From assembly GCA_949285135.1 (NCBI GenBank), contig CASDXO010000013.1, positions 62,001-126,000 of the forward strand: a stretch of DNA of 64,000 nt, read 5' to 3'. This DNA comes from an uncultured Phascolarctobacterium sp. (GTDB lineage: Bacteria > Bacillota > Negativicutes > Acidaminococcales > Acidaminococcaceae). The position numbers and the translations under genes are program-made. Below, one piece after another: positions 1,863 to 48,931 of the stretch; within the stretch, counting starts at the first letter, position 1, and each line of letters begins with the position of its first letter. The notes under the pieces are model-generated. The model was not told the origin of the DNA. It saw only the letters and a program-made list of their open reading frames with translations, and did not search any database.

Positions 1863-1903
1863 AAAAAAGCAGTTATATCCTTCAGGATATAACTGCTTTT
1901 TGC
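1863..1903. terminator. Bidirectional intrinsic terminator
   Basis: A perfect 13-bp stem (AGCAGTTATATCC with its complement) closes a TTCA loop. It is flanked by an A-run on the left and a T-run on the right, so it can stop the M23 gene (+) and purC (-), which converge here. Confidence 0.85.
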
Positions 1904-1916
1904 TGTTTGCGGTAAA

Positions 1917-2600
1917 TTATTTGCCGAGAATAATCTTGGTCAGATCCATGGGGTCAACGATTTTGCCGTCTTTGTAAACGCGCATATTGCCGCTGGCAAT
2001 TTCGTCAATCAGGATTACTTCATTGTTGTTGTAACCAAATTCAAATTTGATATCATACAGATCCAGACCTTTTTTAGCCAGATCAGCAGCAACGATATGG
2101 GTAATCTTCAAGGTTTGTTCTTTCATGCTTTCAAACATTTCGCGGGTCATGATGTGCAGTGCTTCCAGACCTTCACAGGTAACCAGCGGATCGCCTTTGG
2201 CATCATCTTTGAAAGTAGTTTCAACATAGCCGCCGGGCAGTTCGGTGCCGTCAGCAATGTAATCGCCGTAACGACGGATAAAGCTGCCGGTTGCTTTCAG
2301 GCGGCAGATAACTTCCAGACCTTTGCCGAATACTTTGGCAGGCAGAACTTCCATGGTAGCTTCGTCAACGTTTGCGGATACATAATGGGTTTTGATGCCT
2401 GCTTCTTTCAGGATTTCAAAGAAATGAATGGAGGTTTCCAGATTTGCTTTGCCGATACCTTCGATAGTCAGGCCGATGCTGTTTTCGCCCGGATCAAAAA
2501 CGCCGTCTTTACCGGTGCAGTCATCTTTAAATTTCAACAGTACATTACCGTTTTCCAGCTGATAAACGGTTTTGGTTTTACCTTCGTAAATTTTTTCCAT
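1917..2600 (-). CDS. purC: Phosphoribosylaminoimidazole-succinocarboxamide (SAICAR) synthase
   Basis: A 227-aa protein that ligates aspartate to CAIR with ATP in de novo purine synthesis (cytosol). The N-terminus [17 protein letters not shown] is the glycine-rich nucleotide-binding strand pair typical of Pur[22 protein letters not shown] and the late IKFEFG-VILIDEI segment match the CAIR/aspartate and metal-binding regions. It stands alone, away from other pur genes. The start is supported by AAAGGGTG upstream. A PurR homologue is encoded at 59255-60073, but I found no clear PurBox in the purC upstream region. The segment after DDCTGKDG differs from E. coli PurC, so a divergent subfamily is likely. 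Confidence 0.88.
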
Positions 2601-2643
2601 AATAGCACCCTTTCGTTAGTAACAAGTTTATCTGAACATATTT

Positions 2644-2672
2644 ATCCTATCACAAAGTGTTTTTTTGCTCAA
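2644..2672 (-). promoter_or_regulatory. Candidate sigma-70 promoter of purC
   Basis: Read on the minus strand: TTGAGC, a 17-base spacer, then TAGGAT, about 45 bases upstream of the purC start. The -10 box is imperfect. Confidence 0.4.
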
Positions 2673-2843
2673 GAAAATTGTAAAAAAATTTACTGCAGTA
2701 AAATGTTTGCGTTACCAATTGTCGGTCATAATTATTAGGAATAAAAGATATTCCGAAAAGCAATTTGCCATCCGTGTCGCTTATTTCTATAATATTGCCT
2801 GTCAGTGATACTGGCAAAATAGAGTATAAAAGAGATGGTTTAG

Positions 2844-4004
2844 TTGCAGATGCTTCTGCTTTTACGTGGTTTTGTTGTTTTAGGAGTTATGCTGATGCAT
2901 ACGGCCTGGTTTTTTCAGCAGGCAGCAAACAACACTTGGGAAACTGTTTCCGTGATGATTTTGGATATTATTTCGCTTTTTGCAGTACCGCTTTTTATGT
3001 TTGTTTCCGGATATTTGTTTATCAGCCGACATGGGCATGCTGATATGTACGGTAGAGATTTCTGCAAAAAGATGTTTCTGTCAGTCCTGTCGCCCTATTT
3101 ACTGTTTTCTCTGTTATATATTATTGGTGCCTGCTGGTTTAATCACAGTAATTATAGTGCAGCAGACATTGTTTGGATGATGGCTACCGGCAGTGCGGCG
3201 GTGCATATGGGATTTTTTCGGGCTCTGTTTGGCTTTTATGTTTTTTATCCGTTCATAATAAGGTGCTTTAAATACTGTCACAGGAAAAAATATTTGTTAC
3301 TGTATTTTGTCGCGGTAATATTTTTGCAGATATTATGGAAAAGTCTGAATAACATAACTTTTTCTGAACACATAACTTTTTATTTTATTCTGGTTTTTTC
3401 TTTTCTGCGCTATATAGCGTATTTTTCCTTTGGCATGGTGACCTATCTTTATCACAGGCGCATTTTAAAGTGGATAGGGCAATATTACGCAAGGCTGAAT
3501 CTGCTGCTTGTGCTGTTTGTACCCGCAATAGGCGGCTGCTGGTTTGCCAGGTATTATCTGCAGGATTACAGAATACTGGAATTTATCTGTTTCCCTTTAA
3601 ATCTTTTTCTGTATACCATACTTATAGCAATGCTTTTTTTCGTTGCCAGTCATCTTGTTAGAAAAAATAATTTCGGCAGGTATGCGGTGGCTTATCTTGG
3701 CAATTATTCTTTTGGCATTTTTTTACTGCACGTAATATTTATGTGTTGCGGGGACAGATTATTGTTATTGGCAGGTATTACGCCGGACAGACTGATATTT
3801 TATCCGCTGCTTTTTGCCATGATGCTTACGCTGAGTATTTTAGCCATGGAAATCATTATACATTTGCCATGTTGTGAATATTTGGTTGGAAAAGTAAGCA
3901 AGGTACATACTGCCGATAAGGAAGCTGTCGATTTAGGTTTTCTCGTCAGGAATCTGCTGCAGAGTTATTATGGTAAAGTAAATAGAAAAAAACATGGAGC
4001 ATGA
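2844..4004 (+). CDS. Acyltransferase 3 (OafA/WecH-like) membrane protein
   Basis: A polytopic protein of about 386 aa with some ten predicted membrane helices. The N-terminal LLLLRGFVVLGVMLMHTAWFF resembles the (D)xLRGxAxxxVxxxH signature of acyltransferase-3 enzymes, with the catalytic-type histidine present. Family members move acetyl or other acyl groups onto sugars or lipids at the membrane. The start is doubtful. A TAG stop sits directly before the TTG at 2844, the Shine-Dalgarno sequence is poor, and the usual acidic residue before LRG is missing, so the first about 5-10 residues may be lost or the start unusual. There is no obvious functional partner nearby, so the substrate is unknown. 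Confidence 0.7.
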   Translation: MQMLLLLRGFVVLGVMLMHTAWFFQQAANNTWETVSVMILDIISLFAVPLFMFVSGYLFISRHGHADMYGRDFCKKMFLSVLSPYLLFSLLYIIGACWFNHSNYSAADIVWMMATGSAAVHMGFFRALFGFYVFYPFIIRCFKYCHRKKYLLLYFVAVIFLQILWKSLNNITFSEHITFYFILVFSFLRYIAYFSFGMVTYLYHRRILKWIGQYYARLNLLLVLFVPAIGGCWFARYYLQDYRILEFICFPLNLFLYTILIAMLFFVASHLVRKNNFGRYAVAYLGNYSFGIFLLHVIFMCCGDRLLLLAGITPDRLIFYPLLFAMMLTLSILAMEIIIHLPCCEYLVGKVSKVHTADKEAVDLGFLVRNLLQSYYGKVNRKKHGA

Positions 4005-4029
4005 CGTATATGTCGTGCTCCATGTTTTT
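3991..4029. terminator. Bidirectional terminator between acyltransferase and LysR genes
   Basis: A stem of about 14-16 bp (CATGGAGCATGACG with its GU-tolerant complement) around TATA overlaps the acyltransferase stop codon and ends in a T-run. It also covers the 3' end of the convergent LysR gene. Confidence 0.8.
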
Positions 4030-4960
4030 ATATGCGCTCACGGCGCAGCAATTCTTCCAGATTGCAAACCTGCTGGGAATTACGTTTCTGGGCGTAAAAT
4101 TTTAAAAATTTTTGCGCGATAACAGAAAGTGGTCTGTCTTTAACCTTGACTATAGTCTTAAAAAGCCTGATATCCGGATCAGTTATTTTCTTTTTTATTA
4201 GCTGCGGACCAAGATTTTCTTCTGGTTCTGCAGGAACTATAGCAGCAGCGATATTGTCTATGGCCCATTGCAGAGCAGTGCTGCGAGTGGTGCTGATACA
4301 GACGATGTGCTTTAACGCAGGTAATTCGGAATGACGCTGTTTTAGCAGTTCCCAGCAGCCGGCAGAAATACTTACAGGGATTTCTGCCATAGAAGCTAAT
4401 TTTATGTCGGTATCAGCATTGTTTATTTGAGGTGCATCCTTATGAAAGACTGCAAATAACTCTTCTTTGCGTCTGAATAACACTTCAAAATTATTTTCGT
4501 GGGTGATGGGGACACTGAAAATACCAAGTTCAGTAATGCCGTTTAAAAGTTGCTGCACCTGGTCGGTAATGCCGCCTTCGTAAATTTCGTAGGTGATATT
4601 GGGGTGCTGAAGATGAAAGTCTTTCAGTACATTACTGATGAAAAGGGAAGAACGTGAATTAGCAGCACTTATCCTGAGCGTGCCAATAGCACCGCCTGTG
4701 ACGCTGTCAATTTCCATTTTGGCCAGGTCTTCCAGAGAGCAGATATATTTTGCTTTCTGATATAGAATATGACCGGCATCCGTAAGAATGAGCTGACGAC
4801 TTCCTCGTTGGGTTATAATCAGCTTGGTGCCGAAGTAATTTTCCAGTGCCTTGAGCTGCTTACTGAGAGCTGGTTGGGCCAGATGTACGCATTCCGCCGC
4901 ACCGGTAAAGCTGCCTGCCTCTATAATAGCAAGAAAATTTCTGTAGTTTTCTAATTCCAT
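4028..4960 (-). CDS. LysR-family transcriptional regulator
   Basis: A 310-aa regulator. The N-terminal winged helix (about residues 1-60) has the classical pattern NFLAIIEAGSFTGAAECVHLAQPALSKQLKALE. A linker helix and a periplasmic-binding-protein-like effector domain follow (about 90-295). A strong AGGAGG lies four bases before the ATG. The gene is transcribed away from the small ORF at 5172 and the transporter unit at 5642-7142. LysR proteins often control such divergent neighbours, so that unit is a candidate target. No effector can be deduced from sequence. Confidence 0.88.
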   Translation of the reverse strand: MELENYRNFLAIIEAGSFTGAAECVHLAQPALSKQLKALENYFGTKLIITQRGSRQLILTDAGHILYQKAKYICSLEDLAKMEIDSVTGGAIGTLRISAANSRSSLFISNVLKDFHLQHPNITYEIYEGGITDQVQQLLNGITELGIFSVPITHENNFEVLFRRKEELFAVFHKDAPQINNADTDIKLASMAEIPVSISAGCWELLKQRHSELPALKHIVCISTTRSTALQWAIDNIAAAIVPAEPEENLGPQLIKKKITDPDIRLFKTIVKVKDRPLSVIAQKFLKFYAQKRNSQQVCNLEELLRRERI

Positions 4961-38707: not shown

Positions 38708-39199
38708 ATGCAACAAACAGACACTTTATATCTTGCTATGCTGCAATATTTTGCCGGTGATGCTAAACGCTGCCAGCATTTTATCAAGGTGCACAGTCTG
38801 GCGGCGCTGATTGGCAGAGCAGAAGGGATAGATGAGCATACGCAGCTCTTACTGGAAGCGGCGGCACTGGTACATGACTGCGGTATTAAGCCTGGTGAAG
38901 CCAAATATGGCCGTAACGACGGCAAGATACAGGAGCAGGAAGGTCCGGCTGTGGCAGAGGTGCTTTTAGCTGATGCAGGCTTTGCTCTGCAGGACAGAGA
39001 GCGCATCTGTTATCTGGTGGGGCATCATCACACCTATAGTAATATTGATGGACTGGATTATCAGATTTTAGTCGAGGCAGATTTTCTGGTAAACTTTTAT
39101 GAAGATAAACTGCCGCCAGCAAATATTAAAATATGTACGGAGAAAATTTTTAAGACTGCGACAGGTATCAAGCTGGCGCGGACCATGTTTGGAATATAG
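38708..39199 (+). CDS. HD-domain phosphohydrolase
   Basis: A 163-aa protein. HD ligands are visible in HFIKVHSLAALIG, AALVHDCGI, LVGHHHTYS and the late ILVEADFLVNF, the order typical of small HD-domain metal phosphohydrolases. GAGGAG precedes ATG 38708. It probably hydrolyses a nucleotide or another phosphoester; the substrate is unknown. The TIGR04076 gene follows after 12 bases and is likely cotranscribed. Confidence 0.83.
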   Translation: MQQTDTLYLAMLQYFAGDAKRCQHFIKVHSLAALIGRAEGIDEHTQLLLEAAALVHDCGIKPGEAKYGRNDGKIQEQEGPAVAEVLLADAGFALQDRERICYLVGHHHTYSNIDGLDYQILVEADFLVNFYEDKLPPANIKICTEKIFKTATGIKLARTMFGI

Positions 39200-39211
39200 G
39201 GAGGGAAAATA

Positions 39212-39478
39212 ATGCGTCCGCAAATAAAACTTACGCTTATTGAGCAAAAAGGCTGCCGTGGCTGTCATCGTGGTCATAAGGTTGGTGATACCTTTGATTT
39301 TGATACGCAGCGGGGCAAACTTTGCCCCATGGCGCTGCATGCAGGTTTTCCTTACATAGATATTCTGCGCTATGGTGGCAGTATTCCCGGGGAACCGGAG
39401 GGGACGGCACGTTTTTGCTGTCCTGACCCTGATACGATTAACGTCTTTAAAGTAGAGATAGTGGGCGGGACCAGTTGA
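39212..39478 (+). CDS. TIGR04076-family protein
   Basis: An 88-aa, cysteine-rich protein. KGCRGCHRGHKVGDTFDF, CPMALHAGFPYIDILRYGG and a late CCPDPDTINVFKVEIV match the TIGR04076 family, whose function is unknown. The four to six cysteines could bind a metal or cluster. Its last codons contain the -35 box of the next promoter. Confidence 0.85.
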   Translation: MRPQIKLTLIEQKGCRGCHRGHKVGDTFDFDTQRGKLCPMALHAGFPYIDILRYGGSIPGEPEGTARFCCPDPDTINVFKVEIVGGTS

Positions 39479-39502
39479 CTGCCTGCCGGAAGTATGTATA
39501 AT
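39475..39502 (+). promoter_or_regulatory. Promoter of the preQ1-regulated operon
   Basis: TTGACT (39475-39480, overlapping the TIGR04076 stop), 16-base spacer, perfect TATAAT (39497-39502). Transcription should begin near 39509, some 15 bases before the aptamer. Confidence 0.75.
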
Positions 39503-39523
39503 ATATTTATTGACAAGTGCATA

Positions 39524-39560
39524 AGACAGTTCGTAACCATCCTGTCTTAAAATAAAACTA
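39524..39560 (+). promoter_or_regulatory. preQ1-I riboswitch aptamer
   Basis: A small H-type pseudoknot aptamer. The perfect 6-bp stem AGACAG/CTGTCT encloses the loop TTCGTAACCATC, followed by the A-rich tail TTAAAATAAAACTA. Order and sequence match preQ1-I aptamers of the Bacillus queC and Thermoanaerobacter (TTE) type, including GTAACC and the AAAACTA tail that closes the pseudoknot. It lies directly before a terminator and genes for a radical SAM enzyme and a YhhQ transporter, a known context for this class. Binding of preQ1 should turn the operon off. Confidence 0.85.
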
Positions 39561-39567
39561 CGGATAT

Positions 39568-39593
39568 AAAGGGTGCCGTGGTGCGCCCTTTTT
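39568..39593 (+). terminator. Riboswitch-controlled terminator (expression platform)
   Basis: AAAGGGTGC pairs with GCGCCCTTT around CGTGGT and is followed by more T residues, eight bases after the aptamer. It lies just before the ribosome site GGAGG (39599-39603), so it can act as an attenuator. Confidence 0.7.
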
Positions 39594-39610
39594 ACTTTGG
39601 AGGTAAGAAT

Positions 39611-40330
39611 ATGGGAACGGTACCTTTTGAGTGCAGGTACGCCTGCATCGACGAAAAAAATTCCCGGGAAATAGTGTTGCTGCGCGGCAGCGGCTGTAAA
39701 TGGCGGCGTTGTCGTTTTTGCGACTATCATCTTGATTTTTCTTTAAATGAAGCAGAAAATTTTCGCCTGAACAGTAAAGTGCTGCAGCAGGTAACAGGTA
39801 AATATGGACGTTTGGAGGTTATCAATTCCGGCAGTTTTTGTGATTTGGATGCGGCAACGATTCAGTTACTGATAGAAATTTGTCAGAAACTTCACATTAC
39901 GAACGTATATTTTGAAAGCCACTGGCTGCACAGAGAGCTTATTGCTGCATGGCGACAGCGTTTTGCCGCTGCGGGTATTACGGTTAAGATGAAGATTGGC
40001 GTGGAAACCTTTGACAGCCTGTTTCGTGAAAGTTATCTGGATAAAGGGATGGGCATGGCTGCGCCGCAGGAGATTGCCGCGTATTTTGATCAGGTATGTC
40101 TGCTGCAGGGTCTGCCTGGGCAGACTAAGGAAAGTATGCTACGTGATATTGAGCTGGGGCTGCAGTATTTTGAACGGGTCTGCATTAATATCATGGTAGC
40201 CAATACCAGGCCTGTGTTGCCGGATGCGGGTGTCAGAGACATTTTTATTAAAGAGATATATCCTTTGTATAAGGATAACGAGCGGGTAGATATCCTGCTC
40301 AATAATACTGATTTCGGGGTTGGTGTATGA
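39611..40330 (+). CDS. Radical SAM protein, candidate queuine lyase (QueL-like)
   Basis: A 239-aa protein. The cluster motif is GSGCKWRRCRFCDYHLDFS, spacing CX4CX2C. Conserved-looking blocks VINSGSFCDLD, VYFESHWLHRE, KIGVETFDSLFRESYLDKGMG and LLQGLPGQTKESM suit a SAM barrel. The gene sits behind a preQ1-I riboswitch and overlaps a YhhQ-type queuosine-precursor transporter. In Clostridioides-type salvage, QueL is a radical SAM enzyme that converts queuine to preQ1, which fits this context. The assignment rests on context, not on sequence signatures I could verify. ATG 39611 has GGAGG seven bases upstream. Confidence 0.72.
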   Translation: MGTVPFECRYACIDEKNSREIVLLRGSGCKWRRCRFCDYHLDFSLNEAENFRLNSKVLQQVTGKYGRLEVINSGSFCDLDAATIQLLIEICQKLHITNVYFESHWLHRELIAAWRQRFAAAGITVKMKIGVETFDSLFRESYLDKGMGMAAPQEIAAYFDQVCLLQGLPGQTKESMLRDIELGLQYFERVCINIMVANTRPVLPDAGVRDIFIKEIYPLYKDNERVDILLNNTDFGVGV

Positions 40331-41037
40331 TGCAGAATGAGTATTTGCTGCTCCTTAATCTGGCAGTTGTATACGGTGGCGTGCTGGTATGGCAGGTGCT
40401 GTTTAAGGATAAAGGTTTGTATTGCTGGACGGTGCTGGCGACCATTGCTGCCAATATCGAGGTAATGATACTTATCAAGGCCTTTGGTATGCAGCAGACG
40501 CTGGGCAATATTCTATTTGCTTCTACCTTTTTGGTAACGGATATTTTAAGTGAGCTGTACGGCAGAAAACAGGCTGACAGGGCGGTGAATATGGGTATTG
40601 CCGCTTCGGTAAGCTTTATCCTGCTGTCGCAGTTCTGGCTGCATTATCAGCCGGACAGTGCAGATACGGTTTTTCCGCATATTGCAGCAGTTTTTACCAA
40701 TACGCCGCGCATTATGCTGACAGGCCTGATAGTTTATGGTATTGTGCAAAAATTTGACGTGTGGCTGTATCATTGGTGGTGGGAGTTTACCAGAAAAAGA
40801 TATGGTGATGCGGAACGTTTTCTGTGGCTGCGTAATAATGGTTCCACGCTTATTTCTCAGTTTCTGAATACGGTACTGTTTACGTTAGGTGCTTTTTATG
40901 GTGTGTATGAACAGTCTGTACTGACAGATATTATTTTATTCAGTTATGTTATCTTTATTGTTACAAGTATTGCCGATACGCCTGTAGTTTATCTGGCACG
41001 TTATCTGCACAGGAAATATGCTGCCGAGACAAAATAA
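40327..41037 (+). CDS. yhhQ: YhhQ/VUT-family queuosine precursor transporter
   Basis: A 236-aa inner-membrane protein with about six helices. Family marks are FLVTDILSELYGRKQADRAVNMG and LRNNGSTLISQFLNTVLF. YhhQ moves preQ0 and preQ1 in E. coli, and homologues can take up queuine. Its ATG lies within the stop of the radical SAM gene (ATGA). With the preQ1 riboswitch upstream it forms an uptake-and-conversion pair for 7-deazaguanine salvage. A terminator follows at once. Confidence 0.9.
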   Translation: MMQNEYLLLLNLAVVYGGVLVWQVLFKDKGLYCWTVLATIAANIEVMILIKAFGMQQTLGNILFASTFLVTDILSELYGRKQADRAVNMGIAASVSFILLSQFWLHYQPDSADTVFPHIAAVFTNTPRIMLTGLIVYGIVQKFDVWLYHWWWEFTRKRYGDAERFLWLRNNGSTLISQFLNTVLFTLGAFYGVYEQSVLTDIILFSYVIFIVTSIADTPVVYLARYLHRKYAAETK

Positions 41038-41064
41038 AAACCGCCCTTGGGGGGCGGTTTTTTT
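41036..41064. terminator. Terminator after yhhQ, shared with the convergent gene
   Basis: AAACCGCCC pairs with GGGCGGTTT around TTGG, with A and T runs outside. The T-run reaches the stop codon of the minus-strand gene at 41063. Confidence 0.85.
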
Positions 41065-48838: not shown

Positions 48839-48845
48839 AATAGAA

Positions 48846-48908
48846 CAGGGAATGAGGTTCTCCCGGGATATTTACATCCGAACCGCTTTAAGCTGATGAC
48901 TTCTGCTC
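48846..48908 (+). promoter_or_regulatory. Fluoride riboswitch (crcB motif)
   Basis: The aptamer has the characteristic GGGAATGAGGTTCTCCC stem-loop, a short variable hairpin (GGGATATTTACATCC), then GAACCGC and AAGCTGATGACTTCTGC. Order and conserved bases match the crcB motif; in the T. petrophila type the corresponding parts are GGCGATGAGG, AAC-GCC and GGCTGATGGCCTC. It precedes a crcB/fluC gene and is followed by an overlapping terminator, so fluoride should relieve termination. Confidence 0.9.
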
Positions 48909-48931
48909 TTGGCAGGAGTGTCAGCTTTTTT
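48891..48931 (+). terminator. Fluoride-riboswitch terminator
   Basis: The 3' part of the aptamer (AGCTGATGACTTCTGC) pairs with GCAGGAGTGTCAGCT, followed by a T-run. Aptamer folding and this hairpin are mutually exclusive, which gives the switch. Confidence 0.8.

Follow-up and report, generated by a model that had tools for sequence, protein, structure and literature searches.

The window, that is the whole stretch of 64,000 nucleotides analysed here (G000:C13:62001-126000), belongs to a genome of 1.89 Mb, for which the record gives a completeness of 100% and a contamination of 0.27%. Its plus strand carries a two-gene unit preceded by a regulatory leader, with the following features (window positions):

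39475-39502, plus strand: sigma-70-like promoter, TTGACT-N16-TATAAT, agreeing with 11 of 12 consensus positions (a consensus match only)
39522-39566, plus strand: preQ1-I riboswitch aptamer (Rfam RF00522, lineage covariance model, P1 covariation)
within 39522-39566, plus strand: aptamer parts, namely P1 (AAGACAG/CTGTCTT), loop TTCGTAACCATC and A-rich tail AAAATAAAACTACGG
39557-39563, plus strand: predicted antiterminator 5' arm ACUACGG, overlapping the aptamer tail (folding, complement test in relatives)
39568-39591, plus strand: intrinsic terminator hairpin of 9 bp with a 6-nt loop, followed by a T-rich tract (terminator scan, folding)
39576-39582, plus strand: predicted antiterminator 3' arm CCGUGGU, within the terminator (folding, complement test in relatives)
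39599-39603, plus strand: ribosome-binding site GGAGG (sequence reading)
39611-40330, plus strand: queL, radical SAM protein of 239 aa, homologue of queuine lyase, with C29-x4-C34-x2-C37
40327-41037, plus strand: yhhQ/QPTR, 236 aa, queuosine-precursor transporter family
41036-41062, no strand assigned (minus strand in the scan): terminator-like inverted repeat 3' of yhhQ (terminator scan)

The promoter, the preQ1-I aptamer, the terminator and the radical SAM gene overlapping yhhQ, as proposed in a preliminary description of this DNA, were all found in place. The two genes overlap by 4 nt (ATGA). An earlier GTG start is possible in the queL frame at 39578, within the terminator; a close queL homologue of a genome of the same genus begins at the ATG equivalent to 39611. 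Upstream of the aptamer, an HD-domain gene and a TIGR04076 gene (38708-39478, plus strand) lie between a tRNA-Thr gene and the leader; they were matched in the same-genus genome and in none of the stretches compared from the genus g9. A fluoride riboswitch is located elsewhere in the window (48839-48912, plus strand; RF01734, 46.3 bits, above the gathering score). All further genes of the genome were sought family by family rather than in a single whole-genome scan.

The comparison of the aptamer with Rfam gave a divided answer: RF00522 matched over the full length and on the correct strand, but the 21.2 bits obtained fell short of the gathering score of 39, and a search at gathering level missed both the window aptamer and the aptamers of its relatives. 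Since a second aptamer of the same genome, located upstream of a queDE-folE-queCF operon (L061 1749-1796), reached only 11.3 bits with this model, the Rfam cut-off misses this lineage; the gathering score serves to classify matches and does not describe a feature of the structure. The P1 stem, the C-containing loop and the A-rich tail are present in the right order. Using a lineage covariance model built from 31 related aptamers, the window aptamer among them, we obtained a score of 66.2 bits for this site, which was the sole match of the window at E <= 1. Across the relatives 99.5% of the P1 cells were paired and two pairs showed changes on both sides; pair 3-29 was seen as A-U, G-C, C-G and G-U and pair 5-27 as A-U and U-A, and the covariation score of P1 was reached by none of 500 shuffles. 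The candidate P2 pseudoknot positions look invariant among the aligned relatives. At E <= 0.1 the lineage model detected an aptamer in 39 of the 47 genome_contigs loci, in every case near the 5' end of queL and on its strand, and gave no match beyond these 39 in 377,521 bases; since most of these sites had served to train the model, the count is a measure of conservation and not an independent test. In locus L050 the aptamer falls inside an extended 5' end of queL, as drawn by the automatic frame call. Matches of the leader to the Rfam families STnc40, STnc70 and mcrA were rejected as sub-threshold overlaps. The match to the lineage model, the covariation in P1 and the recurrence at queL together support the identification as a preQ1-I riboswitch.

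The leader has the anatomy of a transcriptional switch. The terminator region alone folded with -13.2 kcal/mol, and in an alternative fold ACUACGG (39557-39563) pairs with CCGUGGU (39576-39582). Among the relatives with a C-type tail, 12 of 15 contained a downstream complement of comparable strength, compared with 8.8% of shuffled leaders; relatives with G or T tails did not show it in the same shuffle-controlled test. As the pairing is kept in most of the C-tail relatives, the switching mechanism is well supported for this lineage, although as an inference. With preQ1 scarce, the aptamer tail would pair with the complementary segment of the terminator and transcription would go on; with preQ1 bound, the tail would be locked in the pseudoknot, the terminator would form and transcription would stop.

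The preliminary description had noted the absence of queC, queD, queE and queF from the window and had suggested a gut bacterium that lives on queuine from its host or from the diet. The first statement holds for the window, but the rest of the genome encodes these genes: contig C1 contains a complete queD-queE-folE-queC-queF operon (1874-4733), whose products all exceed the NCBIfam curated cut-offs (QueD 92.8 against 89.25; QueE, TIGR03963, 336.8 against 260.1; FolE 222.5 against 162; QueC 179.2 against 150.3; QueF-II 177.3 against 86.9). The operon is preceded by an aptamer of its own (C1:1749-1796), the only other match of the lineage model in this genome, with 58.7 bits from a model that had this aptamer in its training set. 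In a genome of the same genus (G058) queD, queC and queF are arranged alike and both aptamers are present. Given this complete de novo operon and the preQ1-I aptamer in front of it, the idea that the organism depends on queuine is wrong for this genome. The expected genome-wide lack of queC, queD, queE and queF was contradicted, and a queuine-dependent salvager of the Clostridium difficile type without de novo synthesis was rejected on this ground. A complete de novo pathway combined with a lack of queuine-dependent tRNA modification had been named as an observation that would speak against salvage; the first half of this is true here. On paper the complete pathway makes salvage dispensable. 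Since the queL-yhhQ unit and the de novo operon each carry a preQ1-I aptamer, preQ1 is predicted to dampen its own supply by either route. Besides queD the genome contains two more genes of the PTPS family (G000:C1:128730-129077 and C11:65330-65743), and the type of the former is found in almost every genome of the order.

The same pair of genes is found again in Lachnospiraceae and in other Clostridia, which together make up most of the queL hosts; several of the records name an animal gut. In 43 of the 47 genome_contigs loci the gene that directly follows queL encodes a YhhQ homologue; in two Bacteroidales loci (L055 and L057) the homologue lies upstream of queL, and in loci L039 and L046 none was detected beside it. 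A search of the related loci for a third conserved gene beside queL-yhhQ yielded none; the largest clusters were antisense frames.

The coexistence of queL with queC seems to be unusual. A search for QueC in 29 other queL genomes at E <= 1e-15 found none. Within the order, queL was present in 7 of 63 genomes: both queL genomes of the window's genus contain queC and queF; in the four of genus g9 neither a full-length queC nor queF was found; and the remaining genome (G062) has queF and no full-length queC. QueC thus accompanies queL in the order only in the window's genus, a provisional statement, like the queC and queF absences themselves, because several of the genomes are draft assemblies. 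In the window's genus and in g9, queL occupies a syntenic site next to tRNA-Thr(CGT) and to one and the same helix-turn-helix gene. The QueL proteins of the two genera group as a single clade that is nested within those of Clostridia; the G062 protein is placed elsewhere in the tree. The simplest reading, which is not proven, is that queL was gained once before the two genera split and that queC and queF were then lost in g9. In one g9 genome (G026; L069, L009) queL lacks about residues 84-149 in frame, leaving a frame of 148 aa, and this shortened copy reflects either decay of the gene or a collapse in the assembly. Operons composed of a preQ1-I aptamer, QueT and queF were seen instead in the other genera of the order that were inspected (L071, L075, L084, including G062).

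The assignment of the second gene to the YhhQ transporter family was confirmed, since its product passed the cut-offs of TIGR00697 (170.9 against 50.95 bits) and of Pfam Vut_1 (151.3 against 27.2). The cargo of this family varies and comprises preQ0/preQ1 in E. coli and queuine in Chlamydia (PMC11570991). We consider it most likely that in this gut bacterium, a relative of Phascolarctobacterium, the queL-yhhQ pair imports queuine and cuts it to preQ1. YhhQ would import queuine, QueL would cut it by radical SAM chemistry to preQ1, as expected from its homology to a QueL with bound queuine, and the TGT, QueA and QueH of the organism, whose genes were found, would then rebuild Q in tRNA. On contig C8, tgt (254930-255991) and queA (256065-257069), both of which had been anticipated for this genome, are adjacent, and queH (258443-258946) lies nearby. 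The TGT has the pocket motif GGLSVG, of a type tied to preQ1 insertion; queuine-inserting TGTs have GG[LS][AS]G, and the E. coli enzyme has GGLAVG (PMC11570991). The TGT of this genome therefore looks preQ1-specific, because its motif is of the preQ1 type, unlike the queuine type. With tgt, queA and queH encoded and a TGT pocket of the preQ1 type, preQ1 made by QueL could become Q, and thus a conversion of queuine to preQ1 makes sense in this organism. A search of the seven queL genomes of the order for a PF01156 nucleoside hydrolase, as a stand-in for QueK, gave no match; unless there is some other hydrolase, the pair could therefore use the free base only.

The strongest competing explanation assigns different substrates to the two proteins: YhhQ would import preQ0/preQ1 and QueL would act on queuine from turnover of the cell's own tRNA, which would make the unit a recycling and precursor-uptake operon. 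Such a division would agree with the cargo of E. coli YhhQ (PMC11570991), with the fact that this yhhQ is the only PF02592 gene of the genome and with the presence of a QueF to use preQ0. The window protein, however, reached only 28.2 bits with the E. coli-type model, far under the cut-off of 252, and a yhhQ homologue is also paired with queL in genomes without detected QueC, which suggests a substrate shared by QueL and YhhQ. We regard this division of substrates as unlikely, though it deserves to be kept in mind beside the import of queuine.

The identification of the first gene product as QueL is supported by its sequence, its predicted structure and the conserved operon. No match was obtained with Pfam, and the NCBIfam matches were weak, the best being those to RaSEA (TIGR01210) and to a QueE model. 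Using phmmer the protein aligned over residues 9-238 with the solved QueL 6p78 (E 4.2e-49), the queuine lyase from Clostridium spiroforme bound to SAM and queuine. A structure model predicted from 28 homologues (mean pLDDT 94.4) had 6p78 as its nearest PDB entry in Foldseek (E 1.5e-25, TM 0.92/0.95, about 41% identity) and superimposed on it with Z 33.8 and an rmsd of 1.3 Å over 230 residues, compared with Z 13.6 for the next entry. Forty-two invariant positions, including the cysteines of the CX4CX2C motif, are common to the window protein, 6p78 and Bacteroidales homologues, and C29, C34 and C37 are invariant across 18 sequences including 6p78. The associations expected of a QueL, Q salvage genes and preQ1 control, were found alongside it. 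The closest named relative is a protein of an uncultured Phascolarctobacterium (91% identity). In the tree, which includes 6p78 and leaves out the C. difficile QueL, 6p78 is distant from the window protein, with a branch of about 3.9 changes per site. Because of this distance and of the absence of the C. difficile QueL from the tree, a shifted substrate is possible, and the protein could be a QueL paralogue acting on another, related 7-deazaguanine such as a queuine derivative. The long branch and the identity of about 41% would fit a paralogue, as would the missing PF01156 partner, but the very close predicted fold, the full-length alignment and the many invariant residues argue against it, and preQ1-I control together with the pairing with a precursor transporter fits a supply of preQ1. 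We therefore consider a paralogue of this kind improbable, and the window QueL is likely to be isofunctional with 6p78. An archaeosine-type (RaSEA) or QueE-like enzyme in place of a lyase is hardly credible, and both assignments were rejected, since the scores of 32.7 bits (TIGR01210) and 15.5 bits (QueE model) are far under the curated cut-offs of 212.15 and 300, a separate QueE above its cut-off is encoded in the de novo operon, and the QueL structure 6p78 is by far the nearest match.

The unit resembles several known systems. In C. difficile a preQ1-I riboswitch is located upstream of queK-qrtT-queL (Yuan et al. 2019, cited in PMC11477304 and PMC11570991). As far as that operon is described in the citing papers, it shares with the window unit the riboswitch upstream of queL and of a queuosine-precursor transporter gene, as well as the indirect route from queuine to preQ1, which is used by a canonical TGT. 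It differs, within the same accounts, in having the ECF component QrtT in place of YhhQ and in containing queK, whereas the window operon has no queK and no PF01156 hydrolase was found in the genome; moreover, C. difficile is described there as unable to make preQ1, whereas the window genome has complete de novo synthesis. With the QueL of C. spiroforme the window protein has the fold and the CX4CX2C motif in common, but it is distant from it in the tree, and the activity of the homologue is a predicted one. The aptamer belongs to the same class, with the same transcription-termination logic, as the preQ1-I riboswitches of queCDEF operons (PMC11625349), of which the genome has an example on its de novo operon; unlike these, the window aptamer is predicted to control a salvage operon and scores under the Rfam gathering cut-off. 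YhhQ is a member of the same family (TIGR00697/PF02592) as the E. coli and Chlamydia proteins, but it scores far under the threshold set for the E. coli-type preQ0/preQ1 model.

Taken together, the unit is very probably a preQ1-feedback-regulated queuine salvage operon which supplements a complete de novo preQ1 operon, and its description as a salvage operon of known type whose prototrophic setting is unusual is well supported. Real preQ1-I aptamers of this family escape the RF00522 cut-off. In the queL genomes examined, queL is almost always found without detectable QueC, and the window's genus has both systems, each behind a preQ1-I aptamer. It may be, and we offer this tentatively, that a Q maker here keeps a second, riboswitch-gated route from environmental queuine to preQ1 and that the lineage is a live intermediate between maker and salvager, with a sister genus without queC and queF. 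The window's genus with both systems and g9 with queL and without queC and queF form a natural comparison for the transition from makers to salvagers, which also bears on the question whether Q makers consume queuine too. Queuine is a vitamin-like base which animals obtain as a micronutrient from their gut bacteria and their food. If this tentative reading is correct, the bacterium would be a rival for queuine both to its animal host and to gut microbes that salvage it.
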